From Maribacter aestuarii (lineage in GTDB: Bacteria; Bacteroidota; Bacteroidia; Flavobacteriales; Flavobacteriaceae), in NCBI RefSeq assembly GCF_027474845.2, contig NZ_CP107031.2, positions 1 through 64,000 on the forward strand: a stretch of 64,000 bases of DNA, written 5' to 3'. A program made the translations under genes and the position numbers. Positions 18,652 through 61,832 of this stretch are shown here, piece by piece. The notes below the pieces were generated by a model, which saw nothing but the letters and a program-made list of their open reading frames with translations, was not told where the DNA came from and made no database searches. How positions within the stretch are numbered: the stretch's first letter is position 1; each line of letters begins with the position of its first letter.

Positions 18652-19334
18652 TCATTCCTTTTTATCAGTTCGTTTCCATTTGTTGTACAAGTCGTCGTAG
18701 TTGTAGTCGAGTACCGTTTCTTGGCGCTCTAATTTGCCGCTAGCAAAAGCACGTTGAAGAATATCCTCGATTAAATAATCCTCCTCGATTTGGTCGGGAT
18801 GAAACTCCTCCTTAATACTTATTTTAAAGAGTCTTGCGGTCGTATTGTACCAAAAGGCACGCCATCCGCTTCTAAGTTCTTTAACCAAATCAAACGCGGT
18901 GGTCCCCGTTTGCCTGTAGATTAGTTTTACAAGAATTTGTCCTTCTGTCCGCGTTAATTTTTTTAATTCCTCGGAAAACTCCTCTTCTATATACTTCTGC
19001 ACCTTTTTTGTATATCTTTTACGATGTCTTTTTTCTTGATATATTTTAAACTATCGTTCAAGGATACCAAACGCTCTGCTGCCAATTTTGCATACGGATA
19101 CACTTTATGGGTTTTACGCCTCAGGATATAATAGCGTAATTTGTCGTCGTAAGAGTTAAATTTTAATCTCCCAAAAATATAGGCCTCCTCCAAAGCAATA
19201 GAGCCTCGCATTATGGAATCCCCCGCAATGATGATGAGCTTTTCCGACACCGAATCTAAAGGTTGTTCCTCTACTTGGGCTCTCGTCGAAACAAGGACCA
19301 ATAGCATCGCCAAAATTGAAAATATACCTCGCAT
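18652..19334 (-). pseudogene. DUF4294-family exported protein, split by a one-base deletion
   Basis: Two overlapping frames (18987-19334 and 18652-19002) together encode one DUF4294 protein of about 226 residues. The N-part has a signal peptide (LAMLLVLVSTRAQ) and YAKLAAERLVSLND. The C-part carries LKKLTRTEGQILVKLIYRQTG and GWRAFWYNTTARLF, which belong to the same family in sequence order. Adding one A to the A6 run on the coding strand (T6 at 19004-19009) joins DIQK to KVQKYIEEEF without any other change. The gene is therefore either miscalled, freshly inactivated, or expressed by slippage. DUF4294 proteins are conserved in Flavobacteriia; their function is unknown. Confidence 0.85.
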
Positions 19335-19412
19335 GTACTGATAATTTGCAAAAGTCCTGCCAAAATTAAGGATAATTAAAAGGTATAGTATTTAAATACA
19401 CATGATTATTGC

Positions 19413-19420
19413 TAAGTTTG
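19413..19420 (+). promoter_or_regulatory. Putative -7 promoter element of the M42 peptidase gene
   Basis: TAAGTTTG fits TAnnTTTG, 12 bp before the ATG. The -33 region is a weak TTTA at 19391-19394. The leader would be very short. Confidence 0.4.
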
Positions 19421-19432
19421 TAGCATAAATTT

Positions 19433-20533: not shown

Positions 20534-20566
20534 ACTTCTTCTGGGAGACAATAATCAGCAAACCCG

Positions 20567-21117
20567 ATGGATGAAATTATAGATATTCTAAACGCCGAAG
20601 GGAAATTTACTGGAGAAAAAAACTCAAGTCCTATGCACATCGCATGGGACTTTTTCATCCTACGGTCCATATTTGGTTCTACACCGCGAACGGTGAGATA
20701 CTCATCCAGCAACGGGGAAAAAATAAAGACACACACCCCTTATTATGGGATGTTTCAGTTGCCGGACACGTAGGAGCGGGAGAAGCTATTGAACTTGCCG
20801 CCATTCGTGAGGTGAAGGAAGAAATCGGACTTGACATAAAAATCGGACGACTGGAGAAAATAGGCATATTTAAATCCATTCAACAACATAGCCAGCATCT
20901 GATTGATCGTGAATTCCATCATACCTATATTTCTGAGCTGAAAATTCCACTATTAAAACTTCGGAAGCAGGACAGCGAGGTTGAGAACTTAGTTTTAATC
21001 GATATCGATAAATTCGAGAAGGAGGTCTTGGCCGATATCAAAACGGATAAATACGTACCGCACGATACTCACTACTATAATACTATAATAAGAACTATTA
21101 GGACGGCTATAGGTTAG
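20567..21117 (+). pseudogene. NUDIX hydrolase, frameshifted near its N-terminus
   Basis: The full protein of about 184 residues is split between two frames: 20567-20622 gives the family start MDEIIDILNAEGKFTGE, and the rest, in another frame to 21117, gives KLKSYAHRMGLFHPT and onwards. The Nudix box GHVGAGEAIELAAIREVKEEIGLDI-like signature (GX5EX7REVXEEXGX) is intact. Related IPP-isomerase-like NUDIX enzymes of Bacteroidota share HPTVHIWFYT and LLWDVSVAGH. One extra A in the A7 run at 20616-20622 restores the frame. The zero-frame sequence is GAA AAA AAC, a canonical -1 slippery heptamer. The 3' end overlaps hisS by 11 bp. Confidence 0.87.
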
Positions 21118-33392: not shown

Positions 33393-34169
33393 TTAAAAAA
33401 AGCTTAGAATCGCTTTTGAAAACTCCAAGGTTTTGTAAGCATCATTATGAGTTCCAGGTATGATGACTAATTTGCTTTTTTTGGATACTCCATGTAGTTC
33501 TTTAGGGTTCCCGTTATCCATGTCCTGGTCCCTTGCAATCACTAAAATTTTGGCCTTTAGTTTTTGTAATTCTTCAATTGATGTGACCGGTTGGTATTTT
33601 TGCTGTAAATGAAGGGAACGTAAATCAGCACCTATAGATTTGGCATATTCTACAGCATCATTCGTTTCATTCGTGACATTTCCCGCAAAGGCCTCCATGA
33701 ACATTATCCTTCTATCCCAATCAGGATTGGTGAAATCGATGCCCATACCGCCTAGGACAGCCTTTTTTATCCGAGGTTCTTTGGTCAATAAATTAGCTAA
33801 TACTATACTTCCGCGAGAATAACCAACGGCATAGTACTCCTTAGTATTCAAGTGACTCATTAATTCCTTTAAGTCCTTTACCTCCGCTTCATCTTGATAT
33901 GCTTTATCATCTTGAGGCTTACCTGAATTTCCATTGCCCCTCAGGTCTGGAACTACAACACGATACCCCTTTTCCAGTAAGTCACTCTTCAGGGGCGTTT
34001 TTTCCCAAGATGCTCCTGAGCCTATAAAACCATGAACTAGAAGTACGGCCTTACCAAAACCTTCATCGGTATACGTAATCTCGGTTCCATCAAAAGATTT
34101 GAAATAGTTGGTTTGGGAATACGACCTAAAAACCAATAAAAGAATCAATATTCCAAGGGTCCTTTTCAT
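33393..34169 (-). CDS. Exported alpha/beta-hydrolase
   Basis: A 258-residue hydrolase with an N-terminal signal sequence (ILILLLVFRSYSQ, about 5-19), so it acts in the periplasm or outside. The oxyanion-hole region is VLLVHGFIGSG (about 42-52), the nucleophile serine lies in AVGYSRGSIV (about residue 119), the acid near VIARDQDMD (about 212) and the histidine in PGTHNDAY (about 241). The substrate is unknown. It overlaps the upstream glycoside hydrolase gene by 4 bp, which suggests a shared substrate, for example an esterified polysaccharide. Confidence 0.9.
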   Translation of the reverse strand: MKRTLGILILLLVFRSYSQTNYFKSFDGTEITYTDEGFGKAVLLVHGFIGSGASWEKTPLKSDLLEKGYRVVVPDLRGNGNSGKPQDDKAYQDEAEVKDLKELMSHLNTKEYYAVGYSRGSIVLANLLTKEPRIKKAVLGGMGIDFTNPDWDRRIMFMEAFAGNVTNETNDAVEYAKSIGADLRSLHLQQKYQPVTSIEELQKLKAKILVIARDQDMDNGNPKELHGVSKKSKLVIIPGTHNDAYKTLEFSKAILSFF

Positions 34170-35329
34170 TGAGCATTGCTATTTGTCATTTCCTGAATGA
34201 AATTAACCTCATTTTCTGAAAAGGGAGTTCCGTCCGCCCTTAGGATGTCGTGATGCCAAATTTTCGGTTCTGCGGTAAACGTAGAATCCCAACTTTTCCA
34301 AGGATAAATGGTATTCGTTTTACCGGCCACAAATCCCCAATTGATGGCCGCAATTTTATGCTCCTTTAAAAGAGGCAAGACAGCTTCGAACGTATTTCCA
34401 ACCCCTCTAGCCAGATATTCAGTACAAAATAGCGGTCGGTCATATTTTTGCAATTCTTCTATTTTCATACGCACATCTTCAACATCCCCATCGTACGCAT
34501 GAAAGGATATGACATCCGAATTCTCTAGCATAAACCTGTCCAGAGGTGGCAGACTATCGGGTGTTCCCCAATGCTTTACATCTCCCTTCCAAACACCCGC
34601 TGTAATCGGTTGTTCCGGATTTACTTCTCTGGACCACCGGATTACCTTTTTAAGTAAAAGTAGTGAGTACTTAGCCTTATTTTTCAACTCTAGTTCCTTC
34701 CGAGAAGGTTGGCTGGCAACATTATCCGGCTCGTTATACACATCCCAAACCAACATTCTATCGTCCGTTGCAAAATGTCTAAGAACACCCTTAATATAGG
34801 GCTCTAATTCCCTATGCCTTATGGTATCTCCCAATATTTCTGCCCCTGGTGCCTGAACCCAACCCGAATTGTGTACGTGAGGTATTGGCTCGGGTTGTTT
34901 CCCTAATTTGGGTATAGGGTGCCAAACATCATCCAGTAGGACGAACATCGTTTTTATTTGGTAAGAATCCGCCATTTTTAGGTATTCTTCCAAACGATTT
35001 AAAAATCCTACAGAATCTTGTTCCCATAATAAATTATGTAGGTATACCCGATGCAGATTCATTCCCAAATCTGCCGACCATTTAAGTTCCCTTTCAATGG
35101 TTTCTGGATCAAAGGTATCTTCCTGCCAAAATTCGAGCTGATTTATAGCCGTGCTTGGATTAAAATTTGCGCCCACTAGCCATGGTTGTTCGGCGTACCA
35201 TTTATTAGCTTTTTCCTTGGACCAACGCTCGGAGATTTCATATGCATTATATTCCGACTTTTGGTTTTTCTTATCCTCCCCACATGAAGAAAAAACGACG
35301 ATGAAAACTACGAGCATTATTCTAGTCAT
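34166..35329 (-). CDS. Lipoprotein glycoside hydrolase of the GH-A clan (cellulase/GH5-like)
   Basis: A 387-residue secreted lipoprotein: VVFIVVFSSCGED gives a lipobox with Cys near residue 16. The TIM-barrel catalytic domain shows the clan GH-A acid/base glutamate in VWDVYNEPDN (about residue 200) and a likely nucleophile glutamate in LFCTEYLARG (about 308), with RVYLHNLLWEQ and FHAYDGD between. It resembles proteins annotated as beta-xylanase or cellulase-like in marine Bacteroidota, but the linkage specificity cannot be read from sequence. It is translationally coupled to the alpha/beta-hydrolase downstream. No TonB/SusD pair is adjacent. Confidence 0.85.
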   Translation of the reverse strand: MTRIMLVVFIVVFSSCGEDKKNQKSEYNAYEISERWSKEKANKWYAEQPWLVGANFNPSTAINQLEFWQEDTFDPETIERELKWSADLGMNLHRVYLHNLLWEQDSVGFLNRLEEYLKMADSYQIKTMFVLLDDVWHPIPKLGKQPEPIPHVHNSGWVQAPGAEILGDTIRHRELEPYIKGVLRHFATDDRMLVWDVYNEPDNVASQPSRKELELKNKAKYSLLLLKKVIRWSREVNPEQPITAGVWKGDVKHWGTPDSLPPLDRFMLENSDVISFHAYDGDVEDVRMKIEELQKYDRPLFCTEYLARGVGNTFEAVLPLLKEHKIAAINWGFVAGKTNTIYPWKSWDSTFTAEPKIWHHDILRADGTPFSENEVNFIQEMTNSNAQ

Positions 35330-37256: not shown

Positions 37257-37843
37257 ATGAAGTTAGTATTTGCAACACATAATCATAACAAGTTAAGAGA
37301 AATACAATTACTGGTTCCAAAACACATAAAAGTAGTTTCACTGCATGAAATAGGTTGCACAGTACCAATCCCGGAGACGGCCGATACACTGGAGGGAAAT
37401 GCAAAATTAAAAGCCGACTTTGTTTTTAAAAATTACAATTTTCCCTGTTTTGCTGATGATACAGGTTTAATAGTAAATGCACTAAACGGTTCACCTGGCG
37501 TATATTCGGCCAGATATGCGGGCGAAGCAAACGATGCCAACGCCAATATGGACAAGCTACTTAAAAATTTAAACGGTCTAAAAGACAGGTCCGCAAGTTT
37601 CAAAACGGTAATAGCCCTACGTCTATCGGAAAAAGTCCAATTCTTTGAAGGCTCGGTCGATGGAGAGATATGCACTGAAAAAAGGGAACCGATGGCTTCG
37701 GTTATGATCCTATTTTTCAACCATCGGGCTATACTGAAACATTCGCCCAACTTCCCATTTCTGTCAAGAATGAAATTGGACATAGGGGGAAAGCTTTTAC
37801 TAAACTGATAGAATTCTTAAATACGATGGATGTTACAATCTAA
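37257..37843 (+). pseudogene. rdgB: Non-canonical purine NTP pyrophosphatase (RdgB/HAM1), frameshifted in its last quarter
   Basis: RdgB hydrolyses dITP and XTP to keep them out of DNA. The first 143 residues are normal (LVFATHNHNKLREIQ, DTLEGNAKLKADFV, CFADDTGLIVNALNGSPGVYSARYA). After GEICTEK the frame shifts: in the +2 register the expected end [20 protein letters not shown] and [14 protein letters not shown] is encoded, with a stop at 37841-37843. Adding one A (run 37678-37683) or one G (37684-37686) repairs it. As it stands the product would lose the conserved FGYDP motif. A TACTTTTG -7 element lies at 37211-37218. Confidence 0.9.
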
Positions 37844-37848: not shown

Positions 37849-38229
37849 ATGGACACTATCAAGGTATCCGTAGCCTCAGGGAGTGCAGAAGCAGTTGGAG
37901 GTGTGTACATTGTCTTTTTTGTAGGCCTCATGGAAATTTCCCAAATGGTCAACGGATAACCGGAAGGGGAAATGATGATCACCTATAATAAAGTAGTCAA
38001 ATATTCCGGGGGGTATCATTCCAAAAGCATAAAGGAAAAACTTTATTCTTTAAATGTGCGTAACTCGAGTAATCGGAATTGGCATGCCACTTACGGCTAT
38101 TTTCTTGCGCCTTAGCCAACAATTGTAATAAAATCAAACTATCCAATAATTAGCAGTACCTTTGCCGCTTTAATAAACGCCGCTGGTATAGCAGGTGTTG
38201 CGCGGAGTCTAATGGGTTATATACGGTAA
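37849..38229 (+). pseudogene. Interrupted reading frame of about 126 codons, unknown
   Basis: Between rdgB and the helicase gene one frame runs from ATG 37849 to TAA 38227-38229, with only two internal stops: TAA at 37957-37959 and TAG at 38113-38115. The conceptual product has a hydrophobic stretch (VGGVYIVFFVGLMEIS), a basic middle (KVVKYSGGYHSKSIKEKLYS) and a small-residue-rich end (FAALINAAGIAGVARSLMGY). I do not recognise a family. In AT-rich noncoding DNA more stops would be expected, so a decayed gene is possible, but chance is not excluded. Otherwise this 430-bp gap holds nothing that I can identify. Confidence 0.25.
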
Positions 38230-38273: not shown

Positions 38274-40075
38274 ATGACAAAGTTTGAAGCACTGGGACTG
38301 CAAAAGTCCTTATTAGATGCTATTACGGATTTAGGTTTTGAGACCCCATCCGAAGTACAAGAAAAAGCAATCCCAATTTTATTGGAAAGTGAAACCGATT
38401 TGGTTGCGCTCGCACAGACCGGAACAGGTAAGACGGCCGCATTCGGTTTTCCTCTGATTCAAAAATTGAAAGGGACAGTAGGACCACACAAGGTTTGATA
38501 TTATCCCCTACCCGGGAACTCTGCCTGCAGATCACTAACGAACTGCAATTGTATTCCAAATACGAAAGAAACATCAATGTAGTAGCCGTTTATGGTGGTG
38601 CCAGCATAACGGAACAGGCCAGACAAATTAAACGGGGGGCACAAATCATCGTAGCCACACCGGGACGTATGAAAGATATGATCAGCCGTAGATTGGTAGA
38701 TATTTCCAAGATCGATTATTGTATCCTTGATGAGGCCGATGAGATGCTAAACATGGGATTCTTTGAGGATATAAAGGATATCCTGTCCAACACTCCAAAC
38801 GAGAAATCTACTTGGCTGTTTTCTGCGACCATGCCCAAAGAGGTGTCGGTAATCGCCAAGAAATTCATGCATAATCCCAAGGAAATCACCGTGGGCACTA
38901 AAAATGCCGGTACTTCTACGGTACAACACGAATACTATGTGGTAGGTGGAAGAGATCGCTATCCTGCCCTGAAGCGGTTGGCGGATACCAATCCTGATAT
39001 TTTCTCGGTCATTTTTTGTAGAACAAAACGCGATACCCAAAAGGTAGCCGAAAAATTAATAGAAGATGGCTACAATGCCGGTGCTTTACACGGTGATTTA
39101 AGTCAGAACCAACGCGATCTGGTCATGAATTCCTTCCGTAAGAAACAAATTCAAATGTTGGTGGCGACCGATGTTGCAGCACGTGGAATAGATGTAGACG
39201 ACATAACACATGTTATCAACTATCAGCTTCCAGACGAAATAGAAACTTATACCCACAGGAGTGGACGAACGGGAAGAGCGGGTAAATCCGGTATTTCCAT
39301 GGTTATCATTACCAGAAGTGAGCTTAGGAAAATTAAGGCTATAGAAAATAAAATTCAGCAGAAATTTATTTCCAAGACCATTCCTACTGGAATGGAGATA
39401 TGCGAGATTCAATTATATCATTTGGCCAATAAGATTAAGGACACAAAGATTAATAAAGACGTAGACAGTTATCTCCCCGCAATCAATGATGTGTTACAAG
39501 GTATTGATCGCGAAGAACTTATCAAAAAAATAGTATCGGTAGAATTTACCCGTTTTTATAACTATTACAATAAATCCAAGGATTTAAATACCGTTGACAC
39601 TAGCGACAGAGGAAGAAATTCGGACAGACAGAATAGAGGAGAAATTCCAACATCCGGTTCGGTCCGCTATTTTGTAAACGTTGGTGAAAAAGATGGTTAT
39701 GATTGGATGTCTTTGAAGGACTTCATTCGAGACACTGTAGGTTTAGGTCAAGATGATGTATTTAAAGTAGATGTTAAGGATAGTTTTTCATTCTTTAATA
39801 CCGATGCCGAGGCTACGGAAAAAATTCTTTCCACCTTTACGGAATTTAAGGTAGACGGACGTTTCGTGAATGTTGAGGTATCTAAAAATCCCGGAGGCGG
39901 TGGCGGTAAACGCAGAAGCGGCGGTGGTTTTAGGGATAAAGGCAAACGCAGGGGAGATCGCGATGGAAATAGAAACGATGATAGAAGCCGTAGTAAGGGA
40001 AGGGAGCGAAGAAACTCTTCTAGTCCTAATTCAGGCAAAAGAAGAAGTCAGAAAAGAAAAGGAGATTTCTTTTAG
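38274..40075 (+). pseudogene. DEAD-box RNA helicase with DbpA-type RNA-binding domain and basic tail, one apparent frameshift
   Basis: An ATP-dependent RNA helicase of the DeaD/CsdA type for ribosome assembly and cold adaptation, about 601 residues. The N-part (38274-38486) has the Q motif (FETPSEVQEKAIP) and Walker A AQTGTGKTAA. It then needs one added base near 38481-38486 (GGACCAC) to join GTVG to TTQGLILSPTRE. Downstream all motifs are intact: TPGR, DEADEML, SATM, FCRTK, ATDVAARGID, HRSGRTGRAG. A DbpA RNA-binding domain (about residues 465-540) and a Gly/Arg/Lys-rich tail follow. A UUCG-loop terminator ends the gene. Without repair the ATPase site is separated from the rest. Confidence 0.92.
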
Positions 40076-40152: not shown

Positions 40153-40927
40153 ATGGGTAAGTTATTTATAGGTATTTGTTGTCTTTTAGGGTATTTAGGG
40201 TTTGCCCAGGAAACTTCAGAAGATAGCACTATAAATGCCATAGTGGTGAACGCACAGACCGATGTACCTATGGAAAGCGTACATGTCGTAAATCTTAATC
40301 AAGTAGTAGGAACGATTACCAATGAAAAAGGGGAATTCTCCATTAGGGCAGCCGTAAACGACACCTTATATTTTTCTTTCTTTTTTAGGTTTTAAGTCCC
40401 AAAAAATTAGAATCACCAATGACATGTTCAAATTTGAGGACACAAAAATTGCCCTTACAGAATTGGCCTATGCACTAGAGGAAGTAATTGTTAGACCCTA
40501 CCAGCTGACAGGATACTTGGAAATTGACGTAAAGAACCTGCCTATAAATAATTCATATCAATATAGTATCTCAGGCCTTTCTGTAGGTTATGAAGGTGGA
40601 AACAAAAATCCAAGTGCAGTTACCAAGGTTTTAGGGGCAATATTGAATCCGGCCGACTTACTCCGTAATCTTTTTGGAAGGCAGCCTAATAATATGCGGA
40701 AGTTACGCCAGATGAAGGAAGATGACCAAATACGTGATCTTTTGGCATCAAAATTCGATAGGGAGACCCTTGTTGAACTACTACAATTGGAAAAAGTAGA
40801 TATACAGGACATCTTGAACAACTGTAATTACTCCAAATCTTTTATCACCACGGCGAATGACCTCCAAATATTGGATGCCATTAGCAGTTGTTATGAAGAG
40901 TTCAAGGTTCTAAACCGAAAAAAATAA
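40153..40927 (+). pseudogene. Carboxypeptidase-like regulatory domain protein, frameshifted
   Basis: An exported protein of about 257 residues with a signal peptide (LFIGICCLLGYLGFAQ) and a CarboxypepD_reg-like beta-sandwich (INAIVVNAQTDVPMESVHVV, GTITNEKGEFSI). The first frame ends after DTLYFSFFFRF. In the neighbouring frame, from 40387 on, LGFKSQKIRITNDMFKFED continues exactly as the family expects. The pyrimidine tract TTTTTCTTTCTTTTTT (40371-40386) has either one T too many or a 4-nt TTTC duplication. The C-terminal half, about 170 residues, has no recognised domain; a single weak region ILNPADLLRNLF stands out. Function unknown. Confidence 0.75.
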
Positions 40928-40978: not shown

Positions 40979-42670
40979 ATGAAAAACCTACTTACCATCG
41001 CTTTACTATTTTTTCTTTTTGCAGCTTGCGAGTCGCAAAAAAAAGAAGTTGTTAAGGATATCCCCATTGCAGAAAATATTGCCGTAGCACCTGAAAAGAA
41101 AGTTCCTTTTGTTTGGGACGGGGCAAATATTTATTTTCTGCTAACAGATAGGTTCAACAACGGCAATCCAGAGAATGACATCAACTTTGAACGTACGGAT
41201 TCGACGGGAGTCCTTCGAGGTTTTATGGGTGGTGATTTACAAGGTATTACCCAAAAAATTGAAGAAGGTTATTTTAGTGATTTAGGTATCAATGCAATTT
41301 GGTTTACTCCTGTCGTTGAACAAATCCACGGAGCTACTAATGAAGGTACTGGAAATACTTATGGGTACCATGGCTATTGGACAAAGGATTGGACCACATT
41401 GGATCCAAATTTTGGGACTAAAGAAAATCTTAGGGAACTCGTTGAAACCGCCCATGGCAAAGGTATAAGGATTTTAATGGATGTAGTTTTAAACCATACC
41501 GGACCGGTTACACCAAAAGACCCGGTTTGGCCAAAAGAATGGGTGATTACAGATCCTACTTGCCAATTCACCACCTATGAAAACACTACGAATTGCACGT
41601 TGGTAGATAATCTCCCTGATATCTTAACTGCTTCCAACAGTGCTGTAGAGTTGCCTGATGCCCTCTTGGCAAAATGGAAAAAAGAAGGTAGGCTTAGCGC
41701 TGAGTTGGACGAATTACAACTATTTTTTGATCGTACCGGTTATCCAAGGGCCCCAAGGTTCTATATCATTAAATGGCTAACGGATTATATACACGAACTA
41801 GGAATAGATGGATTTAGGGTAGATACTGTAAAACATGTGAATGAGAATGCTTGGGCTGAGCTCTATAAGGAAGCCTCTTACGCCTTTGAAACATGGAAGA
41901 AAAAACATCCAAATACTATTTTAGATGACAATCCCTTCTACATGGTCGGTGAGGTCTATAACTATGGAATCTCCGGTGGGAGGGAATTTGATTTTGGAGA
42001 CAAGAAGGTAAATTACTTTGATAACGGTTTCCACAGTTTGATAAATTTTGAGCTCAAAAACGATGCTGACAATGATTATGAGACCATATTCACTAAATAC
42101 AGTAAACTGCTGCACACCTCATTGAAGGACAAAAGTGTAGTCAATTATCTGACTTCGCACGACGACGGTCAACCTTTTGACCAAGAGCGAAAGCAACCCA
42201 TGCGCACTGCAAATGTCCTTTTATTAACTCCAGGGGCCTCCCAGGTCTACTATGGTGATGAGACGGCACGCAGTTTAGTAATAGACAGTACACAAGGTGA
42301 TGCTACCCTGCGTTCCTACATGAACTGGGAAGAATTGGATAGCTTACCAGGAAAAAAAGATATATTGGCACATTGGCAAAAAGTAGGTCAATTTAGGAAC
42401 AACCATCCTGCAATTGGTGCCGGTAAGCATAAAAGGCTGGGTAAAACCCCCTATGTTTTCAGTAGAGCCTATACCGACGGGGACTATAAAGATAAAGTAG
42501 TGGTGGGACTAGATTTACCTAAAGGTAAAAAATCACTCTGGGTTAAGGGTTTCTTTGGTGACGGAACCAAGCTTTTTGACACATATTCGCAAACAGAGGT
42601 CGTGGTCGCAAATGGTAAGGTCTTACTGGACAATGATTTTGATATTGCACTCTTAGAATTGATGCCCTAA
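40979..42670 (+). CDS. Secreted alpha-amylase-family lipoprotein (GH13)
   Basis: A glycoside hydrolase family 13 enzyme of about 563 residues. The signal ends in a lipobox LFAACES (Cys near residue 18), so it is probably anchored in the outer membrane. The four GH13 regions are visible: DVVLNHTG (region I), GFRVDTVKH with the nucleophile Asp (II), MVGEVYN with the acid/base Glu (III) and NYLTSHDDG (IV). A calcium-site-like ADRFNNGNPEND-type loop is near residue 55. ATG 40979 is preferred over ATG 40973 because it gives MKNLL. It degrades alpha-glucans; the exact specificity is open. No transporter is adjacent. Confidence 0.93.
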   Translation: MKNLLTIALLFFLFAACESQKKEVVKDIPIAENIAVAPEKKVPFVWDGANIYFLLTDRFNNGNPENDINFERTDSTGVLRGFMGGDLQGITQKIEEGYFSDLGINAIWFTPVVEQIHGATNEGTGNTYGYHGYWTKDWTTLDPNFGTKENLRELVETAHGKGIRILMDVVLNHTGPVTPKDPVWPKEWVITDPTCQFTTYENTTNCTLVDNLPDILTASNSAVELPDALLAKWKKEGRLSAELDELQLFFDRTGYPRAPRFYIIKWLTDYIHELGIDGFRVDTVKHVNENAWAELYKEASYAFETWKKKHPNTILDDNPFYMVGEVYNYGISGGREFDFGDKKVNYFDNGFHSLINFELKNDADNDYETIFTKYSKLLHTSLKDKSVVNYLTSHDDGQPFDQERKQPMRTANVLLLTPGASQVYYGDETARSLVIDSTQGDATLRSYMNWEELDSLPGKKDILAHWQKVGQFRNNHPAIGAGKHKRLGKTPYVFSRAYTDGDYKDKVVVGLDLPKGKKSLWVKGFFGDGTKLFDTYSQTEVVVANGKVLLDNDFDIALLELMP

Positions 42671-45392: not shown

Positions 45393-46082
45393 GTGAAAAA
45401 AATAGTAGTGCTCAGCGGCGCAGGAATCAGTGCGGAAAGTGGATTGAGGACCTTTAGGGATGCCAACGGACTGTGGGAAGGACACGATGTAATGGAAGTA
45501 GCCACTCCAGAAGGTTTTCAACGAAACCCAAGTTTGGTACTGGATTTTTACAACCAAAGGAGAAGACAACTTTCAAAGGTCACTCCTAACCCTGCCCATA
45601 TTGCCTTAACTAAATTGGAATCTGAGTTTGACGTAACAATCATTACCCAAAATGTAGATGATCTTCACGAACGCGCGGGAAGTTCAAAAGTTCTACACTT
45701 ACATGGGGAATTGCTAAAGGTAAGAAGTACAAAACCTGGTGGAAGTCCTATGCAGTGGAAAGAGGATATAGTTTTGGGGGATTTGTGTGCAGACGGTTAT
45801 CAATTACGCCCGCATATCGTTTGGTTTGGAGAGGCGGTACCATTATTGGACGATGCCATAGCCATTACTTCTAAGGCCGATATTCTTATCATAGTAGGAA
45901 CCTCTATGCAGGTATATCCTGCAGCAAGCCTTATTGATTTTGTGGGACAAGATATTCCCATTCATTTTATCGACCCAAAACCTTCCATTTCAGAAAGTCG
46001 CAAAAACCTATCGGTAATGGCAAAGACTGCAGTTGAAGGAATTCCTAAATTGGTTGCTTCCCTAATTGATAAAGAATCCTAG
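45393..46082 (+). CDS. NAD-dependent protein deacylase (class III sirtuin, CobB-like)
   Basis: A 229-residue sirtuin starting at a GTG codon. NAD motifs: VVLSGAGISAESGLRTFRD (about 4-22), TQNVDDLHERAGS (about 83-95), LHLHGEL with the catalytic His, IVGTSMQVYPA and the C-terminal HFIDPKP. FYNQRRRQ (about 52-59) provides the Tyr and Arg that mark desuccinylases and demalonylases. The zinc-ribbon region lacks the usual four cysteines: only one Cys is present between residues 100 and 150. The 3' end overlaps the haem-binding gene by 38 bp on the opposite strand. Confidence 0.92.
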   Translation: MKKIVVLSGAGISAESGLRTFRDANGLWEGHDVMEVATPEGFQRNPSLVLDFYNQRRRQLSKVTPNPAHIALTKLESEFDVTIITQNVDDLHERAGSSKVLHLHGELLKVRSTKPGGSPMQWKEDIVLGDLCADGYQLRPHIVWFGEAVPLLDDAIAITSKADILIIVGTSMQVYPAASLIDFVGQDIPIHFIDPKPSISESRKNLSVMAKTAVEGIPKLVASLIDKES

Positions 46083-46517
46083 TCTGTTCTGCCCAAGAAA
46101 CAATACTATCAATCTGTTGCTGGGAAAGTCTAGCACTTTTATGCATCCATTTATAGGAATTCAAGGGCATTTCGCCTTTGGATACTTCCTCTATCAATTC
46201 TTCTAATTTATGGTCTATCTGCTTTATTGAATAGTTATCCCAATCCGAAAAATTAAGGTGTTCCTTTCCTTCATTTACATGGTCAGATAACCAATAGGAA
46301 AATGGAGCAACATTATTGTACCACGGGTATGCAGTATTGTTGCTATGACAATCATAGCATGTTTCTGTAAGTATTGTTTTTACAGATTTTGGTGGATTAG
46401 TTTCCGCTATAAAGACTGATGCATGATTGCCTTGTGATGTGTTCTTTTCTGGTCTGTAAAACTGTAGGGCAACGAATACGAGAAGCAACAAAAAAGAATT
46501 TTTTTGAGTATTTTCAT
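46045..46517 (-). pseudogene. Haem-binding-domain protein (c-type CxxCH), signal peptide frameshifted
   Basis: A periplasmic or membrane protein of about 156 residues with the haem motif ETCYDCHSNNTAYPWYNNVAP (CYDCH, about residue 52) and a C-terminal helical part (LNSYKWMHKSARLSQQQID), matching the Haem_bd family. The open frame begins at TTG 46491, in the middle of the signal peptide. An ATG at 46517 reads MKILKKILF and then leaves the frame. One more T in the coding-strand T6 run (A6 at 46490-46495), or one more A in the adjacent A7 run, gives MKILKKILFLLLLVFVALQF, a perfect signal anchor. The 3' end overlaps the sirtuin gene. Confidence 0.85.
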
Positions 46518-51798: not shown

Positions 51799-52350
51799 TT
51801 ATTGCTTCTTTCCTGCTTTATTAAGTTCTTCAGGAAGGTTCATTTTACGCGTGAGCGATCCAATCTTGTTTAAATCAATGTCACCCGTTAAGGACAAAAG
51901 GACCGTTTCAAATTTCCTTCCGTTTACATTAATGTCTACTCCAGAATCTTTTATTCCGGTAACGAACATTAAAAGTTCGCTCACATGATCGGCATCCTTA
52001 CCTTGTTTTATATAGAACTTTACATTCGCATCTTTATCCTTTACGCGCATAAGCTCCTCAAGGGAATTTGATTTCAAATACTTGTTCATGGTAACCATCA
52101 TATCCGCGGATATATCTTTATCCTCCGTAATGAATACTTTAAGATTTTTGAGACTTTTTGCTATATCCATAAAATCTTTTGCTTCGGGCTCGTCTACTTC
52201 GACATCTATGTTGGCCAAAAGCCTGAACATACTCTGGTTTACGACCACGGCGCTTACATTGTCCAAATCTTCGTACTTATCGAACATGGACTGTGAAAAC
52301 CCGGTGTAACACACCATTACGGTTACTATCGTTATTATTATCTTTTTCAT
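51799..52350 (-). CDS. DUF4252-family exported protein, copy 1
   Basis: A 183-residue protein with a signal peptide (ITIVTVMVCYTGFSQ, cleavage near 19). The mature N-terminus SMFDKYEDLDNVSAVVVNQS matches copy 2 closely. Its acidic segment DVEVDEPEAKDFMDIA is distinctive. It lies directly after the anti-sigma gene (17 bp). In Bacteroidota, DUF4252 genes commonly follow an ECF sigma factor; an extracytoplasmic sensing or stress role is inferred, not shown. Confidence 0.85.
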   Translation of the reverse strand: MKKIIITIVTVMVCYTGFSQSMFDKYEDLDNVSAVVVNQSMFRLLANIDVEVDEPEAKDFMDIAKSLKNLKVFITEDKDISADMMVTMNKYLKSNSLEELMRVKDKDANVKFYIKQGKDADHVSELLMFVTGIKDSGVDINVNGRKFETVLLSLTGDIDLNKIGSLTRKMNLPEELNKAGKKQ

Positions 52351-52367
52351 CTGTCTAATTTTTAATT

Positions 52368-52802
52368 TTAATTGTTGTTATAAATTTTATCCCTTGTCTC
52401 CTCGAACTCATTTAGATAGGCTACCTTTTCCGTACCCCGACTAAAATTTTCCGCTAAAAGGGCAAAAGCTTTTTTTGTTTGGTTGTAGGCCAACCGAGCC
52501 TTTTCTTGATCCGCGATCTGCTTTTGTTGGTATTCGTTACCAAAATAAATTCCAAACATCAGAACAGCTACAGCAGCTACGGAACCCCACTTGTAAATAT
52601 TTACGCTAGGTTTTAAGGGGACCTGCTTGGTAAAACGTTCTTCTTTGGCATTGGTAAAATATTGAAACATGTGGGTATAAGGTTCCAAATGAGCAGCTAC
52701 ATCATCTTTGGAAAAATAAGCCCGTAAAGTTTCTTCTTCTGCTACCGTCGTGCTAGCATCAAAATACTTTTCTAATAATTTTTCTATGTTATCCAATTCC
52801 AT
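52368..52802 (-). CDS. Putative anti-sigma factor, single-pass membrane protein
   Basis: A protein of about 144 residues: a soluble acidic N-domain (about 1-65, EKLLEKYFDASTTVAEEETL, the typical start of Bacteroidota anti-sigma-like proteins), one membrane helix (about 73-88, WGSVAAVAVLMFGIYFGN) and a coiled-coil periplasmic tail (KQIADQEKARLAYNQTKKAF). The start overlaps the sigma gene by 14 bp (ATG 52802; an ATG at 52817 is also in frame). The overlap and topology point to a membrane anti-sigma factor, although no zinc-binding ZAS motif is visible. Confidence 0.75.
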   Translation of the reverse strand: MELDNIEKLLEKYFDASTTVAEEETLRAYFSKDDVAAHLEPYTHMFQYFTNAKEERFTKQVPLKPSVNIYKWGSVAAVAVLMFGIYFGNEYQQKQIADQEKARLAYNQTKKAFALLAENFSRGTEKVAYLNEFEETRDKIYNNN

Positions 52803-53298
52803 AACTGTGTTTTTCAATTAATTTTTCTCTAATGGTTTTCCTAGCTCTGGAAAGGGCTACTCGTATTGCGGTAGGTTTCATGTCCATAAGCTCTTCAATT
52901 TCATCGTACTCATATTGCTCTACATCCCTTAACTGCAATACCATTTTCTGCTGTTCTGGCAACTCTTCCATGATCTTTTGTACCCAATTAACGCTATCCT
53001 TTGCCTCCAGTTGAGTTTGTAAGGATGAACCGTCATCACCATAATTACTATGTACTAATTTAAGGTTCCCTGCTTGCTTGGATTTTAATCTGTCCAAACA
53101 GAAATTCTTCGTCATCGTCATCGCAAATGCTTCAACACTATTGTAACCTTTTATAGCATTCTTTTTAGACCATAGTTTCAACAGAACTTCCTGTGTGGCA
53201 TCCTCAGCTTCCTCAGAAGATACCAATAAGCGTTTTGCTAATCGGTACAACTTATCCTTAAAAGGCAACACTGCATTTAAAAATTCCGCTTGTTTCAT
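52789..53298 (-). CDS. ECF-type RNA polymerase sigma factor
   Basis: A 169-residue sigma-70-family factor with region 2 (FKDKLYRLAKRLLVSSEEAEDATQEVLLKLW, in parts, about 13-43; AFAMTMTKNFCLDRLKSKQ, about 58-76) and region 4 (MVLQLRDVEQYEYDEIEELM, MKPTAIRVALSRARKTIREK, about 115-160). It is the first gene of a five-gene minus-strand operon with an anti-sigma-like protein and three DUF4252 proteins. Autoregulation from an ECF promoter upstream is likely but no motif could be confirmed. Confidence 0.93.
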   Translation of the reverse strand: MKQAEFLNAVLPFKDKLYRLAKRLLVSSEEAEDATQEVLLKLWSKKNAIKGYNSVEAFAMTMTKNFCLDRLKSKQAGNLKLVHSNYGDDGSSLQTQLEAKDSVNWVQKIMEELPEQQKMVLQLRDVEQYEYDEIEELMDMKPTAIRVALSRARKTIREKLIEKHSYGIG

Positions 53299-53529
53299 TA
53301 TGGTTCGGTTGTTCGCTACAACTATAAGAGATGTCTACACAAGGAAGACGAGATTCAACGAATATTGTTACAAATAATTTTTTTTATTTGATATGTAAGT
53401 AAATTTAACATCCTAATACTAATTAATAACGTAAGTATTCGGTAATTATAATTCCCCTGTTTTCTTTTCCTATTAAAATTGGAACGATTCTTGGGAAAAG
53501 TAATCTTGTATTTCAATATAAAAAAAGCT

Positions 53530-55052
53530 ATGAAAAATTATTTTTTATTATTACTATGTATAGGAATCTGTTTTAGTGCGTGCAATAGTGATGACGATAC
53601 CCCTATCGTAGAGGAGGAACAACAGGAGGAGCAGGAGGAACAAACCCCGGAAGAGGTTAATATTGTTGTTCAGAATTTCATGTGGCAAACCATGAATGCT
53701 TATTATTTCTGGCAGGGTGACGTACCTGATTTAGCGGATGACCGTTTTGCCACTCAAACGGCATACGAAGATTTTTTGGCTGCAACGCCTAATCCAAATA
53801 CCTTTATTCAGGACAAACTGGTTTTTTCAGGTGACCGATTTACTGCATGGAGTGATGATTATAAGGATTTTACTAACCGAATCGCAGGAATTTCCAAAAG
53901 TAATGGATTAGAATTTGGGCTTTCACTGATTGGTCAATCTGAAGATATCTTTGGTTTCGTAGAATACATTGTTAAAGATTCAGATGCTTCCTCAAAGGAT
54001 ATCAAGAGAGGCGATATATTTATTGGTGTAAATGGAACTAGATTGAATAGAAGTAATTACATCGATTTGTTGTTCGGAGATGCCGACACCTATACATTAG
54101 ACATGGCGACGATTGAAAATAATACAATTACACCTAACGGCAAGGAAGTAACTTTAACAAAACAAGAAGGACTTGTGGAAGACCCTATCTTGGTGGATGA
54201 TGTACTCACATTTGGAGATAAAAGAATAGGCTATTTGATGTATAATTTATTCTCTTTGGATTCTGGTGATGCATTAAACCAAGTATTTGCTGAATTTAAG
54301 AACCAAAACATTACAGATTTGGTTTTAGACCTGCGGTATAATCCAGGAGGTAGAGTTACTACGGCAACTATTTTGGCCAGTCTAATCCACGGGCCCAATA
54401 CAGATCAGCTTTTTTTAGGACTACTTATAATTCGAAAATTGAAGCACAATTTGAGCCAGGCGAACTGGATAACAATTTTGTTAGTACCACGGGTACCGCA
54501 AATGGTGGCATGAACGAGATGTTAAACTCGTTAAATCTTAATCAAGTGTATATTTTGGCCACAGGGGGATCCGCCTCAGCTAGTGAATTGGTCATGGTAG
54601 GATTAGAACCTTATTTAAATGTTGTGCATATCGGCACGACTACCGTTGGCAAAAATCAAGGTTCTTTGCTCTTTGTGGATGATTTTGAAAATGGCAATGT
54701 TTATAATACAGATAGAGAGAATGAAATAAATCCAAATAATCAATGGGGGATTCAACCGATTATTAGCCAACTTGAAAACAGTGTAGGTTTTTCTGATTAT
54801 ACGGACGGTTTAGTTCCGGACATAGAGTTAGAAGAGGACATTACCAATTTAGGCGTACTTGGTGACCCCAATGAACCTTTGCTTGCGAGGGCAATACAAG
54901 AGATTACCGGTGTTAGTGCCAAAAGGAGTTTTGAGGTTCAAATACCATCAAATATAGTTTCAAGTTCCAAACTATTTGATGAGAGGAACACCGCACTTAT
55001 TATGGATAATCTCAAAGAGGTTGATATTAAAGCCTTTACGCCACAAGAATAA
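53530..55052 (+). pseudogene. S41-family peptidase lipoprotein, copy 1, frameshifted
   Basis: A C-terminal-processing-type serine protease of about 508 residues. Signal and lipobox are CIGICFSACNSD (Cys near residue 18), then an acidic Glu/Gln-rich linker, a PDZ-like domain (about 105-200) and the S41 catalytic core. The frame breaks after NTDQLF: T7 at 54410-54416 should be T8, which gives DQLFFRTTYNSKIEAQFEPG and leads into the downstream frame with the nucleophile motif ATGGSASASEL (Ser) and TVGKNQG (Lys). The intact tandem copy confirms the expected sequence. In zero frame the site is CTT TTT TTA, a canonical slippery heptamer. ATG 53530 gives the lipoprotein signal. Confidence 0.9.
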
Positions 55053-55079
55053 TTGCCTATTAATTGCGTTGATTTACTC

Positions 55080-56549
55080 ATGAGAAAGATTTTAGTTTTT
55101 TTATTGATTGCTACTGCGTTTTCCTGTTCTAAGGACGATGACATAAATGTACCGAATACGGTAGACCCAAATTCCTCAGCGGATGTTGAAGTTCAGGATT
55201 TTATGTGGAAGGCGATGAACCTTTGGTACTTCTGGCAGGGAAATGTCCCCGATTTAGCCGATGACAGATTTGCCAATACCCCCGAAGGCAGTGAAGCCTA
55301 TACTGAGTTCCTTCTGTCGGGTGACGACCCAGGTGATTTTTTTGACAGTAAACTCCTATATATAGAAGATCGATTTAGCTTTTATAATTCAGATTATAGG
55401 GTGCTAACGAATTCCTTGGCTGGAATATCAAGAAGCAACGGTTTAGAATTTGGTTTGATCAGAAAACAGGATAGTGAAGAGATTTTTGGATATGTACGTT
55501 ATATTATCCCAAATTCCGATGCAGCCACGAAGCCAATTAATAGGGGGGATTTATTTACAGGAGTAGATGGCCAAACATTAACTTTGGACAACTACATTGG
55601 GCTGTTGTTCGGAGAGAATAACACGTACACCCTAAATATGGCCGATTTTTCCAACGGTGAGGTAATGCCTAACGACAATGAGATTGAACTTACCAAGCAA
55701 GAAGCGTTGGCAGAGAACCCCGTTTACATTTCAAAATCTTTTGAAATAAATGGTGAGAGTATTGGCTACATCATGTACAATCAATTTACAAATGAATATG
55801 ATGACGACCTATATGACGCTATAATCGCCCTTAAGTCTGCTGGCATCACAAGTTTGGTATTGGACCTTAGGTACAATCCTGGAGGTTCTGTCAATACGAC
55901 TCGTCTATTGGCAAGCATGATATACGGTACGAACACTTCCGATCTTTTCCTTAGAAAACGCTATAACGAGAAGATTCAAGATCAATTATCGCAAAGTCAG
56001 TTAGAAGTTTATTTTGCTGATAAGGTGGGCAGCAGATCTATTGATGCATTAGGGCTTTCCAAGTTGTACGTCTTGACCACTAACGGATCGGCATCAGCCA
56101 GTGAGCTGTTAATAAACAGCCTTGAACCTTATATCGATGTAGTTCAAATTGGAGATGTTACTAGGGGTAAGAATGAATTTTCTACTACCTTGGTAGATGA
56201 TCGGGACAACTCCTACTTATACACGCCTAGCAGGGTAAATATGATTAATCCGGATGTTCAATGGGCCATACAACCTTTATTGGGCCGAAACGAAAATGCC
56301 GAGGGATTTTCAGACTACACGGATGGATTAGTACCCGATATTCAGCAGAAAGAAGATTTGGGTAATCTAGGAATTCTGGGGGATGCCAACGAACCGCTAT
56401 TGGCAAGGGCAATTCAAGAAATTACTGGTGCCACCGGGAAAAGTGATTTCACGGTTAATAGCCCTGTAGAGACAATGACTAGCTCTAAAATGTTTACCTT
56501 ATTAAAAGATAGGATGATAGACGATACGCATTATCAACATAACCAATAA
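55080..56549 (+). CDS. S41-family peptidase lipoprotein, copy 2
   Basis: A protease of about 489 residues paralogous to the preceding one. The lipobox is IATAFSCSKD (Cys near residue 16). DVEVQDFMWKAMNLWYFWQG (about 35-54) is the conserved N-domain shared by both copies. A PDZ-like region follows (about 110-200), then LVLDLRYNPGGSVNTTRLLA, TTNGSASASELLINSLEPY with the catalytic Ser, and VTRGKNEFS with the Lys of the Ser-Lys dyad. The true start is ATG 55080; the frame opens at the preceding stop. The targets are unknown; a surface or periplasmic role is expected. A terminator follows. Confidence 0.92.
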   Translation: MRKILVFLLIATAFSCSKDDDINVPNTVDPNSSADVEVQDFMWKAMNLWYFWQGNVPDLADDRFANTPEGSEAYTEFLLSGDDPGDFFDSKLLYIEDRFSFYNSDYRVLTNSLAGISRSNGLEFGLIRKQDSEEIFGYVRYIIPNSDAATKPINRGDLFTGVDGQTLTLDNYIGLLFGENNTYTLNMADFSNGEVMPNDNEIELTKQEALAENPVYISKSFEINGESIGYIMYNQFTNEYDDDLYDAIIALKSAGITSLVLDLRYNPGGSVNTTRLLASMIYGTNTSDLFLRKRYNEKIQDQLSQSQLEVYFADKVGSRSIDALGLSKLYVLTTNGSASASELLINSLEPYIDVVQIGDVTRGKNEFSTTLVDDRDNSYLYTPSRVNMINPDVQWAIQPLLGRNENAEGFSDYTDGLVPDIQQKEDLGNLGILGDANEPLLARAIQEITGATGKSDFTVNSPVETMTSSKMFTLLKDRMIDDTHYQHNQ

Positions 56550-58480: not shown

Positions 58481-58566
58481 TTAAAATTTCTGCTCCGAGC
58501 GAAAAGTATGTCTGTACCCATACGTAAACCTTTATCCCGAAAGTTTAACAATGTTTGTTTGAATTT

Positions 58567-58770
58567 GGCAGGTCTCCTGACTCGTAATTTGTTCTTTACC
58601 TTCCCGTTTTCACTGAATTTTTTCAGTTGCTACAGTGGTTAGTAGTAAGAACAACTTGTTAATTGAACAAGATGCTGAAACAAGTTCAGCATATACTTAC
58701 AGTTGCGGGAACAGTTCCGGATTTTAACCGGATTCCCTTTTAATTCCATCTTTATGAAAGGATGAAAACC
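58567..58770 (-). promoter_or_regulatory. Cobalamin riboswitch in the leader of the btuB-like gene
   Basis: On the minus strand the leader contains the conserved cobalamin aptamer elements in order: GGGAATCCGGTTAAAATCCG, AACTGTTCCCGCAACTGTA, a stem-loop region with CTTGTT..AACAAG, CCACTG, and the 3' B12-box GAGTCAGGAGACCTGCC (58567-58583). These are the hallmarks of the AdoCbl/cobalamin riboswitch. The receptor ATG lies about 87 nt downstream. No intrinsic terminator is visible in between, so control is probably at translation initiation. Binding of cobalamin is expected to lower receptor expression. Confidence 0.95.
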
Positions 58771-58830
58771 AAAATTCCGGATAAAAGTAAACATTTTGTT
58801 TAATCAATCTAAGCAAAGATGAAATAATAC

Positions 58831-58838
58831 TACTTTTG
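58831..58838 (+). promoter_or_regulatory. Putative -7 promoter element of the B12 ABC operon
   Basis: TACTTTTG fits TAnnTTTG. It points toward the btuF-like gene and would place the transcript start near 58845, which favours TTG 58863 over TTG 58836 as start codon. No good -33 TTTG at the right spacing was seen. Confidence 0.35.
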
Positions 58839-58862
58839 AAAAAATACATAAAATCTCATCCC

Positions 58863-60007
58863 TTGAAACAAGGCTTATTCTTATTTCTTCTTTTACTAAA
58901 CTTTAGCTGCAAGCAAGAAAAAAAGAGTCCATCCCGCTAGAAGAGGTAGAAAAGGCAATCTCTATTGACTACGCAGATGGGTTCACGATAAAGCAATCAG
59001 CTTCCGGCATTACCATAATTGAGATTTCTTCTCCTTGGCCCAATTCCGAGTCAATCTTTACCTATGCCTTAATACCTAAGGACAAAATGGCCTCGATAAC
59101 CTTGAACAAGGACGAGTACGACGCCATCATTGCAGTTCCAGTAGAAAATGTGGTAGTGACCTCTACTACTCACATTTCGGCTCTAGAGGCTTTGGGTGTT
59201 CTAGATAAATTATCCGGGTTTCCTGATACCCAATATATATCCTCAGAGGCCGCACGCAGGCAAATTGATGCTGGTATAATCAAAGAACTTGGCAGCAATG
59301 AAACGATAAATACGGAAATAGTGATTGCGCTCAAACCAGAACTAGTGGTGGGTTTTGGAATCAATTCGCAGAATTCAGCCTACGAAACTATTTCCCGCTC
59401 AAAAATTCCGGTCGTATATAATGGCGATTGGACCGAAGCGACACCTTTAGGCAAGGCCGAATGGATAAAGTTTTTCGCTCCATTTTTTCAAAAAGAAAAA
59501 GAGGCACAGGCAATTTTCGAAGAGATAGAAAACGAATACCTATCGGCAAAAGAATTGGCAAAACAGGCTACCAATACCCCAAAAGTCTTAAGTGGTGCCA
59601 TGTACAAAGATGTTTGGTACCTTCCCGGTGGAAAAAGTTGGGCGGCCCAGTTTATAAAGGATGCCAATGGGAAATATCTGTGGCAAGACACTTTAGAATC
59701 CGGCAGTTTATCACTAGGATGGGAAGGGGTTTTGAAAAAGGCAGCGAACGCAGATTTTTGGGTAGCTCCAGCCCAGTTTACTTCGTATGAAGAAATGCAA
59801 GATGCCAGCCCACATTATCAGGAGTTTGGTGCTTTTAAAAATAAAAATATCTATACATTTTCCAGAACCCTTGGAGCAACAGGAGGGGTACTGTATTACG
59901 AGTTGGCACCACAAAGACCGGATTTAGTGTTAAAAGATCTCATACACATTTTTCATCCAGAATTATTACCAGAGCATCAACTCTACTTTTTCAAACCTTT
60001 AAAATAA
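58863..60007 (+). pseudogene. Cobalamin/iron ABC substrate-binding lipoprotein (BtuF-like), frameshifted near the N-terminus
   Basis: A periplasmic binding protein of about 381 residues. A lipoprotein signal starting at TTG 58863 reads LKQGLFLFLLLLNFSCKQEKK, in parts (LLLLNFSC lipobox). After the A7 run 58918-58924 the frame is lost; one added A gives KKESIPLEEVEKAISIDYA and joins the long downstream frame, in which VENVVVTSTTHISALEALGV, GDWTEATPLGKAEWIKFF, SGAMYKDVWYLPGG and ATGGVLYYELAPQRPDLVLK are intact. In zero frame the site is GAA AAA AAG, a canonical -1 slippery sequence. The downstream part alone (ATG 59087) lacks the export signal. It is the first gene of the importer operon. Confidence 0.88.
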
Positions 60008-61039
60008 TTGGAGAAACCTAAAACATATCGTTTTTCATTTCTATTCCTAGTTTGCTTGCTGATAGTATGCTTCATTCTAAATCTTAGCCTAGGTTCCGTT
60101 TCCATTTCCTTGTCAGATACCTTGCACGTGATTTTTGGTGGAAATCTAGAAAATTCTTCCCTGGAATATATCATATGGAATTACCGCATTCCAAAAGCAT
60201 GTACCGCTATTCTAGTTGGTGGTGGGTTAGGATTAAGTGGACTCTTAATGCAGACCCTTTTTAGGAACCCGTTGGCCGGACCTTTTGTTTTGGGAATAAG
60301 TTCAGGAGCCAGTTTGGGGGCGGCTATTTTAATTATGGGAGCTTCCCTATTTTCTGGATTGGCAACTTATAGTGTTGTCAACGATATAGCGCTGGTAGTC
60401 GCCTCTAGCGCGGGTAGTTTTCTTGTCCTGTTGGCCGTAATAATTGTAGCTATAAAAATAAAGGATACTATGGCCTTGCTCATCATCGGCCTTATGTTTG
60501 GAAGTATCACCGCGGCCATCGTAAGCGTACTTGCCTACTTTAGCAATGCAGAAAGGCTTCAGCAGTATCTTTATTGGTCCTTCGGTAGTGTCGGAAATCT
60601 TTCCTGGGGGCAATTGACGCTCTTGTTTTGTTTTGTGTGTATCGGAACCTTGCTCAGCATTATTTCAGTAAAACCCCTTAATGGTTATTTGCTCGGGGAA
60701 AATTATGCGAAAAGTCTGGGCATCAACCTAAAAAAATCACGTTACATTATCATTATCGCTACAGGATTGTTATCAGGAAGTATAACCGCTTTCGCGGGTC
60801 CGATTGCTTTTATAGGTTTAGCGGTGCCACATCTCACCCGACAAATTTTTGATACCACCAACCATAAGATACTTTTGCCCGCCGTACTAATCTACGGAGG
60901 TATTATTTTGTTACTTTGTGATGTAGTAGCCCAATTGCCAGGCTCGGTTAACGTGCTGCCAATAAATGCAATCACCAGTATTCTTGGTGCTCCAGTTGTA
61001 ATTTGGCTTTTGCTTCGAAAGAGAAAAATGGTATTTTAA
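60008..61039 (+). CDS. FecCD/BtuC-family ABC transporter permease
   Basis: A 343-residue inner-membrane permease with about ten helices. Family motifs: RIPKACTAILVGGGLGLSGL (about 53-72), QTLFRNPLAGPFVLGISSGA (about 76-95), SFGSVGNLSW, and the coupling region GPIAFIGLAVPHLTRQI (about 265) that contacts the ATPase. It starts at TTG 60008, directly after the stop of the binding-protein gene. It works with the neighbouring binding protein and ATPase to import cobalamin or a similar metal chelate. Confidence 0.93.
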   Translation: MEKPKTYRFSFLFLVCLLIVCFILNLSLGSVSISLSDTLHVIFGGNLENSSLEYIIWNYRIPKACTAILVGGGLGLSGLLMQTLFRNPLAGPFVLGISSGASLGAAILIMGASLFSGLATYSVVNDIALVVASSAGSFLVLLAVIIVAIKIKDTMALLIIGLMFGSITAAIVSVLAYFSNAERLQQYLYWSFGSVGNLSWGQLTLLFCFVCIGTLLSIISVKPLNGYLLGENYAKSLGINLKKSRYIIIIATGLLSGSITAFAGPIAFIGLAVPHLTRQIFDTTNHKILLPAVLIYGGIILLLCDVVAQLPGSVNVLPINAITSILGAPVVIWLLLRKRKMVF

Positions 61040-61049
61040 AAAATTACGA

Positions 61050-61832
61050 ATTAAAACAGAAGAACAAAAAATCGCCCTAGCCGTAAATAACTTATCCATT
61101 GGATATAACTTCATTTCCGTATGTGACAATATTAATTTTGAGCTTCGGAAAGGAGAATTATCGGCCATAGTGGGCGTAAACGGTATTGGCAAATCTACCC
61201 TATTGAGAACCTTGGGTAATTTCCAGCCTAAAATTTCGGGGTCTATCAAGATTAGCGATAAGAGCTTGGAAGTATTCCCTCCTCTTAAACTTGCATCTAA
61301 AATTAGCGTAGTTCTAACGGAGCCTATTGCCTCAAAAAATCTAAATGTTAGAGAGCTAATAGCCCTGGGAAGGCAACCGTATACCAATTGGCTAGACAAT
61401 CTTTCAGCCCAGGATTTACTAAAGATCAATGAAGCTATTCAACTGCTAGAGCTCTCTGCCCTAATTGATAAAAAGTGTTATGAATTAAGCGATGGACAAA
61501 TGCAACGAGTATTAATTGCGAGAGCATTGGCACAGGATACGGATATCATATTATTGGATGAACCCACTACACATCTTGACCTCTACCATAAAGTTCAAAT
61601 TTTTAAGCTTTTGAAATCCATAGCCCATGTGACCCGTAAGACCATTCTATTTACGAGTCATGAAATAGAAATGGCCATACAGTTATGTGATAAAATATTG
61701 ATTATGGATGGTTATACGAATCCTTTTGAAGACCCATGTGCTCTTATTGAAAACAAAGCTTTTGAGCGTCTTTTTCCCTCGGATACCGTAATGTTCGATG
61801 CAGTGAACGGAACCTTTAAGATTAACAAATAA
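61050..61832 (+). CDS. ABC transporter ATP-binding protein (BtuD/FecE-like), start codon uncertain
   Basis: The ATPase of the importer, about 260 residues. Coding similarity begins with KIALAVNNLSIGYNFISVCD upstream of Walker A GVNGIGKST, then NVRELIALGRQPYTNW, the signature LSDGQMQRVLIARAL and Walker B DIILLDEPTTHLDL with the H-loop TSHEIEM. The frame is open from 61002, but no ATG, GTG or TTG occurs in it before GTG 61170, which lies inside Walker A and cannot be the true start. ATT 61050 is a rare possibility; an undetected indel near 61031-61071 is more likely. I give 61050 only as a provisional start. Confidence 0.85.
   Translation: MKTEEQKIALAVNNLSIGYNFISVCDNINFELRKGELSAIVGVNGIGKSTLLRTLGNFQPKISGSIKISDKSLEVFPPLKLASKISVVLTEPIASKNLNVRELIALGRQPYTNWLDNLSAQDLLKINEAIQLLELSALIDKKCYELSDGQMQRVLIARALAQDTDIILLDEPTTHLDLYHKVQIFKLLKSIAHVTRKTILFTSHEIEMAIQLCDKILIMDGYTNPFEDPCALIENKAFERLFPSDTVMFDAVNGTFKINK

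Follow-up and report, generated by a model that had tools for sequence, protein, structure and literature searches.

Frameshifted genes in the opening 64 kb of the Maribacter aestuarii assembly and their probable origin in consensus error

Insertions and deletions (indels) in single-base runs are known from the consensus sequences of long reads, where they split genes and do not spare essential ones. In PMC9262707, homopolymer indels are described as splitting genes in nanopore consensus, and near-finished genomes are obtained with R10.4 chemistry at ~40-fold coverage; PMC10877868 applies a frameshift-aware gene caller to PacBio data because of their more frequent frameshifts. Indels in runs are likewise found in mutator or slippage-prone lineages, and a Maribacter genome assembled as one contig, G010 (completeness 81, poor consensus quality), also has conserved genes split by indels. 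Here we analyzed the first 64,000 bases (G000:C1:1-64000, hereafter the window) of the single contig of Maribacter aestuarii, G000 (3,864,851 bases; completeness 97.57, contamination 0.07), which opens with dnaA and in which a preliminary description had reported at least eight genes carrying single-base frameshifts and named eight. Frames are broken in G000 in excess of its relatives, essential genes elsewhere on the contig are broken, and long A/T runs are depleted. The eight frameshifts are very probably, for the most part, consensus indel errors of the assembly, and the errors are confined neither to A/T runs nor to missing bases. G000 differs from the described long-read homopolymer errors by a minority of insertions, by hits in C/G runs and by lesions outside long runs; from mutator or slippage-prone lineages by its open mutS and mutL genes and by hits in indispensable genes; and from G010, which has ~6x more frameshift calls per base.

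Broken genes in the window

Frameshifts were detected by searching open reading frames (ORFs) of relatives against DNA and counting adjoining matches in different frames. For the window, ORFs of nine clean relatives served as queries and a place was kept when at least two of them supported it; as a control, each of the nine was searched with the other eight. Lesion sites were aligned with ten relatives (nine for the haem gene), whose stretches matched 50–60 kb of the window at 71–72% DNA identity. In a wider test, ~1.04 Mb of G000 (window included) was compared with G001 (480 kb) and G002 (680 kb), giving 336 kb of covered coding sequence. Counts for the clean relatives, for G010 and for the G001/G002 control were uncurated. 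Completeness of the 18 other Maribacter genomes was 99–100 in 15 and 81–85 in three.

All eight genes (Table 1) were out of frame with respect to the relatives, and none of the aligned relatives shared the shift of G000 at any of these sites. The proposal that they are mostly one base short in A/T runs was borne out by alignment in seven of the eight; the eighth, the carboxypeptidase-like gene, is indeed broken at the tract first reported, but by a net +4 relative to ten of ten relatives and not by a single base. The frameshifts in rdgB, DEAD, carboxypeptidase-like and S41 genes were each supported by nine of nine clean relatives and that of DUF4294 by two, while the NUDIX frameshift was called in a more sensitive run, with both G001 and G002. 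The haem-binding and btuF lesions were seen by DNA alignment only, within a fast-changing signal-peptide region. Two positions had to be moved by 20–25 bases: the DUF4294 lesion does not lie at 19004-19009, since by our reading the downstream frame is still correct through these bases, and the DEAD lesion lies upstream of 38481-38486. At the latter site relatives carry A6 (seven of ten) or AGAAAA (three of ten), so that the restored run would not be one of 7–8. The A8 run in the amylase gene was found as described, at 41037-41044. In total the window contains 65 A/T runs of at least 7, four of them at lesion sites (NUDIX, haem, S41, and btuF).

Pfam DUF4294 is split over the two ORFs of its gene, which match model positions 4-71 and 72-155. 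The best model for a relative's copy of the carboxypeptidase-like gene is BamP, with a score under the model cut-off. An S41 paralogue at 55053-56549 adjoins the broken S41 gene, and among the best 120 matches of the S41 search none came from the 659432-base contig. In the btuF-like gene, the frame change sits just past the presumed lipobox cysteine. A cobalamin riboswitch on the minus strand (58550-58788) precedes a TonB-dependent receptor and adjoins the btuF-like and FecCD genes.

Essential genes, excess of lesions and run lengths

A living cell should not manage without valyl-tRNA synthetase or initiation factor 2. Three families that include such genes were searched in G000, G001, G002, and G007, and two of the 15 G000 genes, valS and infB, were seen broken. 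Both lie outside the window and are broken by single-base indels: the valS site is a G run lacking one base and the infB site an A-rich stretch with one base too many. In piecewise comparison with G002, the two halves of valS lie in different frames with 82.5 and 75.5% identity, and those of infB with 94.4 and 78.5%; the G002 copies scored above the NCBIfam cut-off as valine--tRNA ligase and IF-2. No second full-length copy of valS or infB was found in a search of the G000 genome. An apparent second valS frame change near 636330 was dropped, as it lies ahead of the gene. Since essential genes are broken the same way elsewhere in the genome, the finding concerns sequence quality and not biology.

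The gene dnaX carries two frame changes, the second of which is an A9 with one A more in G002. Its first 316 residues correspond to DNA polymerase III gamma/tau (NCBIfam), and no other close copy was found with the N-terminal part of a relative's dnaX as query. This gene was missed by the detector because both flanks share one frame, was found on rechecking the stops at 376881-376971, and is not counted among the lesions below. In other bacteria dnaX is subject to slippage or frameshifting at an A run, and for this reason the case rests on valS and infB.

In the window, six calls were obtained for G000 in 57.6 kb vs 13 in 650 kb for the nine clean relatives (all uncurated), which ranged from 0 to 6.9 calls per 100 kb; one of the six, at 10939, is not a lesion. 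As a positive control, G010 gave 45 calls in 75 kb, which by our count divide into 24 and 19 for the two shift classes and two mixed calls. The wider test gave 14 calls in the G002 comparison and eight in the G001 comparison, which after curation amounted together to 11 lesions in 336 kb. The control pair G001 and G002, each searched against the other, yielded a single uncurated call per direction (183 and 186 kb covered), and the excess in G000 had a p of 0.007 (11 curated vs 1 + 1 uncurated). With G000 ORFs as queries, three uncurated calls were obtained in G001 and seven in G002, of which one and four, respectively, mirror G000 lesions by our reading. Some candidates were rejected after alignment: 10939 (a conserved leader ahead of a gene), 45319 and 3841391 (start-region differences), and 58469 (the relative's ORF runs into the riboswitch region). 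At the first of these places, an L19 leader of Flavobacteria occupies 10892-10919, ahead of a 116-amino-acid ORF (10949-11299).

The 11 lesions include five from the window (NUDIX, rdgB, DEAD, BamP-like, and S41). Six of the 11 are losses of one base in A/T runs (NUDIX, rdgB, DEAD, S41, 7TMR-HD, and ung); the other five comprise a -1 in a C run, a -1 outside any long run, a +1 in an A run, the +4, and an A7 that is either -2 or +1. The label of undercalling in A/T runs thus covers part of the lesions only. The fadE lesion, at which there is no long run, and the +4 are the exceptions to a concentration in homopolymers. The lesion rate rose with run length, from ~1/578 runs of 6 to 1/173 runs of 7 and 4/34 runs of 8, in a tally of our own that assumes one lost base and rests on small numbers.

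Comparison of run lengths with those of relatives, a check already suggested in the preliminary description, revealed a shortage of A/T runs of at least 8 in G000, outside genes too. There, 52 of 220 runs of 7 continued to 8 vs 149 of 398 in the nine clean relatives pooled (p=0.0005), and the ratio was below that of each of the nine and above only that of G010 (3/20). The difference was small for continuation from 6 to 7 (p=0.04) and absent from 5 to 6 (p=0.78). Over all DNA, the 7-to-8 step was taken by 152 of 826 runs vs 392 of 1611 (p=0.0008). Continuation in G000 stayed within 0.001 of G001 up to length 6 and then, from 7 to 8, was 0.184 vs 0.236; in G002 it was higher at all lengths.

Table 1. 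Broken genes of G000, with positions on contig C1.
Feature	Coordinates	Strand	Remarks
DUF4294 gene	18652..19334	-	two frames, 18987-19334 then 18652-19002; lesion T6 19029-19034
NUDIX hydrolase gene	20534..21117 (start approximate)	+	frame change at A7 20616-20622
rdgB (XTP/dITP diphosphatase)	37257..37843	+	frame change at A6 37678-37683; name from relative's copy
DUF4337 pseudogene (probable)	37849..38115	+	internal TAA 37957-37959; ~375 bases shorter than relatives
DEAD-box RNA helicase	38274..40075	+	two frames; frame change at A5 38461-38465
CarboxypepD_reg/BamP-like protein (carboxypeptidase-like)	40153..40927	+	net +4 in T-rich tract 40371-40386
Haem_bd protein	46045..46517	-	frame change in signal peptide near A6 46490-46495 / T7 46499-46505; alignment only
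S41 peptidase	53479..55052	+	two ORFs; frame change at T7 54410-54416
btuF-like lipoprotein	58870..60007 (start approximate)	+	frame change at A7 58918-58924; alignment only
fadE	near 102481		frame change; name from relative's copy
ThuA/GSDH	near 126150		frame change; name from relative's copy
7TMR-HD	near 343086		frame change; name from relative's copy
dnaX	375912-377801		two frame changes, near A6 and at A9 (near 376820-376990), stops between
valS	633796-636320		split: 634540-635886 and 635886-636215; lesion near 635890; single frame in G001, G002, G007
infB	2434199-2436560		544-amino-acid frame vs 902-959 in relatives; lesion near 2435419; open in G001, G002, G007
ung	near 3755451		frame change; name from relative's copy
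mutS2	near 3759677		frame change; name from relative's copy
miaA	near 3832245		frame change; name from relative's copy

Sequencing error, decay and rescue

The explanation that fits these results best is a miscount of single-base runs at the calling of the contig. Counts would most often fall one base short, and more often the longer the run; some runs would be overcalled, and a few errors would arise outside long runs. In the organism itself the genes would most likely be intact, and reads would show other run lengths. We infer the cause to be an insufficiently polished long-read consensus. This agrees with the breakage of valS and infB lacking a second full-length copy, with the concentration of lesions in homopolymers, with the depletion of long runs in noncoding DNA and with lesions that fall blindly with respect to conservation. 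In this last regard, the broken genes were as conserved as a length-weighted random draw (P=0.41), into which the genes of 10 of the 11 lesions entered. Divergence was scored by subtracting the mean for eight other relatives from the identity to G002 and was called normal within one standard deviation of 49 intact genes; it was normal in six of the seven window genes measured (NUDIX, rdgB, DEAD, BamP-like, haem, and btuF). The S41 gene was left out of both measures because its paralogue took the match. These divergence values and the open mutS and mutL genes (875 and 616 amino acids, as in relatives) likewise support consensus error in the assembly, and the explanation preferred in the preliminary description is right in kind.

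In the eight genes, neither further lesions nor relaxed divergence accompanied the frameshifts. The stops at 19053-19116 (DUF4294), 58904 (btuF), and 376881-376971 (dnaX) lie in wrong-frame segments. A near relative has DEAD open, with 600 amino acids and 99% identity, and a contig of equal length carries an open rdgB (195 amino acids) that is 91% identical across the in-frame part; both open copies favor consensus error. The gap between 99 and 91% raised the suspicion of relaxed selection in rdgB, which was dismissed because visual inspection showed the differences to be shared out over both branches. Two other stretches stood out in the comparison with G002. At 51799-52817, a DUF4252 protein and its neighbor are 89 and 73% identical to G002 vs a mean of 66 and 60% for the eight others, as a possible exchange would produce; and a 387-amino-acid ORF at 34166-35329 is unpaired in the table that matches G002 genes to the window.

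Several observations weigh against consensus error. The +4 at 40371-40386 resembles a tandem duplication, an event within the reach of a cell. The window has a higher density of lesions (5 in 56 kb) than the sequence outside it (6 in 280 kb; p=0.025); errors at a uniform rate would not give this pattern, yet the window was chosen for its lesions. The similarity of DUF4294 is below expectation (-0.09), to which a wrong-frame stretch in its alignment contributes. Depletion at the 7-to-8 step is weak within genes (98/599 vs 239/1201, p=0.07); over all DNA, G005 (0.183) and G007 (0.139), each with few runs, do not exceed the 0.184 of G000, which was moreover sampled over more of its genome than the relatives were. 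Finally, the three family searches show open frames like those of relatives for 13 of the 15 genes, including two PF00521 genes that would be gyrA and parC.

Some of these points would suit a mixed case, in which most lesions are consensus errors and one or more of the eight are true mutations of this strain, the first candidate being the +4 in the BamP-like gene. Such a case is conceivable, although we consider it rather unlikely. The +4 would fit a tandem TTTC duplication, unlike the other lesions, and the higher density in this window speaks in the same direction, as does a probable true pseudogene 2 kb away. On the other hand, sequencers misread low-complexity tracts too, and conservation of the BamP-like gene is close to expectation (-0.03). 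The pseudogene is a DUF4337 remnant between rdgB and the DEAD gene that had been overlooked in the preliminary description. Relatives checked encode a DUF4337 protein of ~214 amino acids at that place (214 in G001); the match in G000 is down to 66 residues and contains a stop, the only in-frame stop found in G000 outside frame-changed segments, and a short tail follows the ~375-base loss. Several lesions independent of one another, a stop and a large deletion among them, mark it as a probably genuine pseudogene, separate from the eight frameshifts. A miscounted run does not explain it, so decay and sequencing error appear side by side.

The alternative raised in the preliminary description, a lineage with real A/T-run slippage and recent loss of these genes, appears very improbable. 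Seven of the eight window lesions do lie in A/T runs, and long A/T runs are rarer than in the pooled relatives, which a contraction bias could also give. However, such slippage would have inactivated valS and infB, mutS and mutL are open, where a mismatch-repair mutator would have one of them defective, C and G runs are hit as well, as is sequence outside long runs, and the only in-frame stop found outside frame-changed segments is that of the DUF4337 remnant.

Least credible of all is that a free-living marine flavobacterium truly has indels by the dozen in conserved genes (valS, infB, and dnaX among them) and makes the proteins by transcriptional slippage or ribosomal frameshifting, as in some endosymbionts: rescue of this kind at homopolymers has been described, and dnaX, broken here, is known for it elsewhere, but most runs are 5–7 long, signs are mixed, one lesion lies outside any long run and none of the aligned relatives shares the window shifts of G000.

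Consequences for the use of the genome

Consensus error, as the favored explanation, has direct consequences for users of G000, since gene loss and pseudogene counts are unreadable without correction. Extrapolated to the whole genome, the lesion rates correspond to ~70 (outside-window rate) to 110 (all 11 lesions) detectable broken genes. Frame breaks in indispensable genes offer a quick test that separates sequencing error from decay. As biology the finding is ordinary; its use is as a flag of sequence quality.

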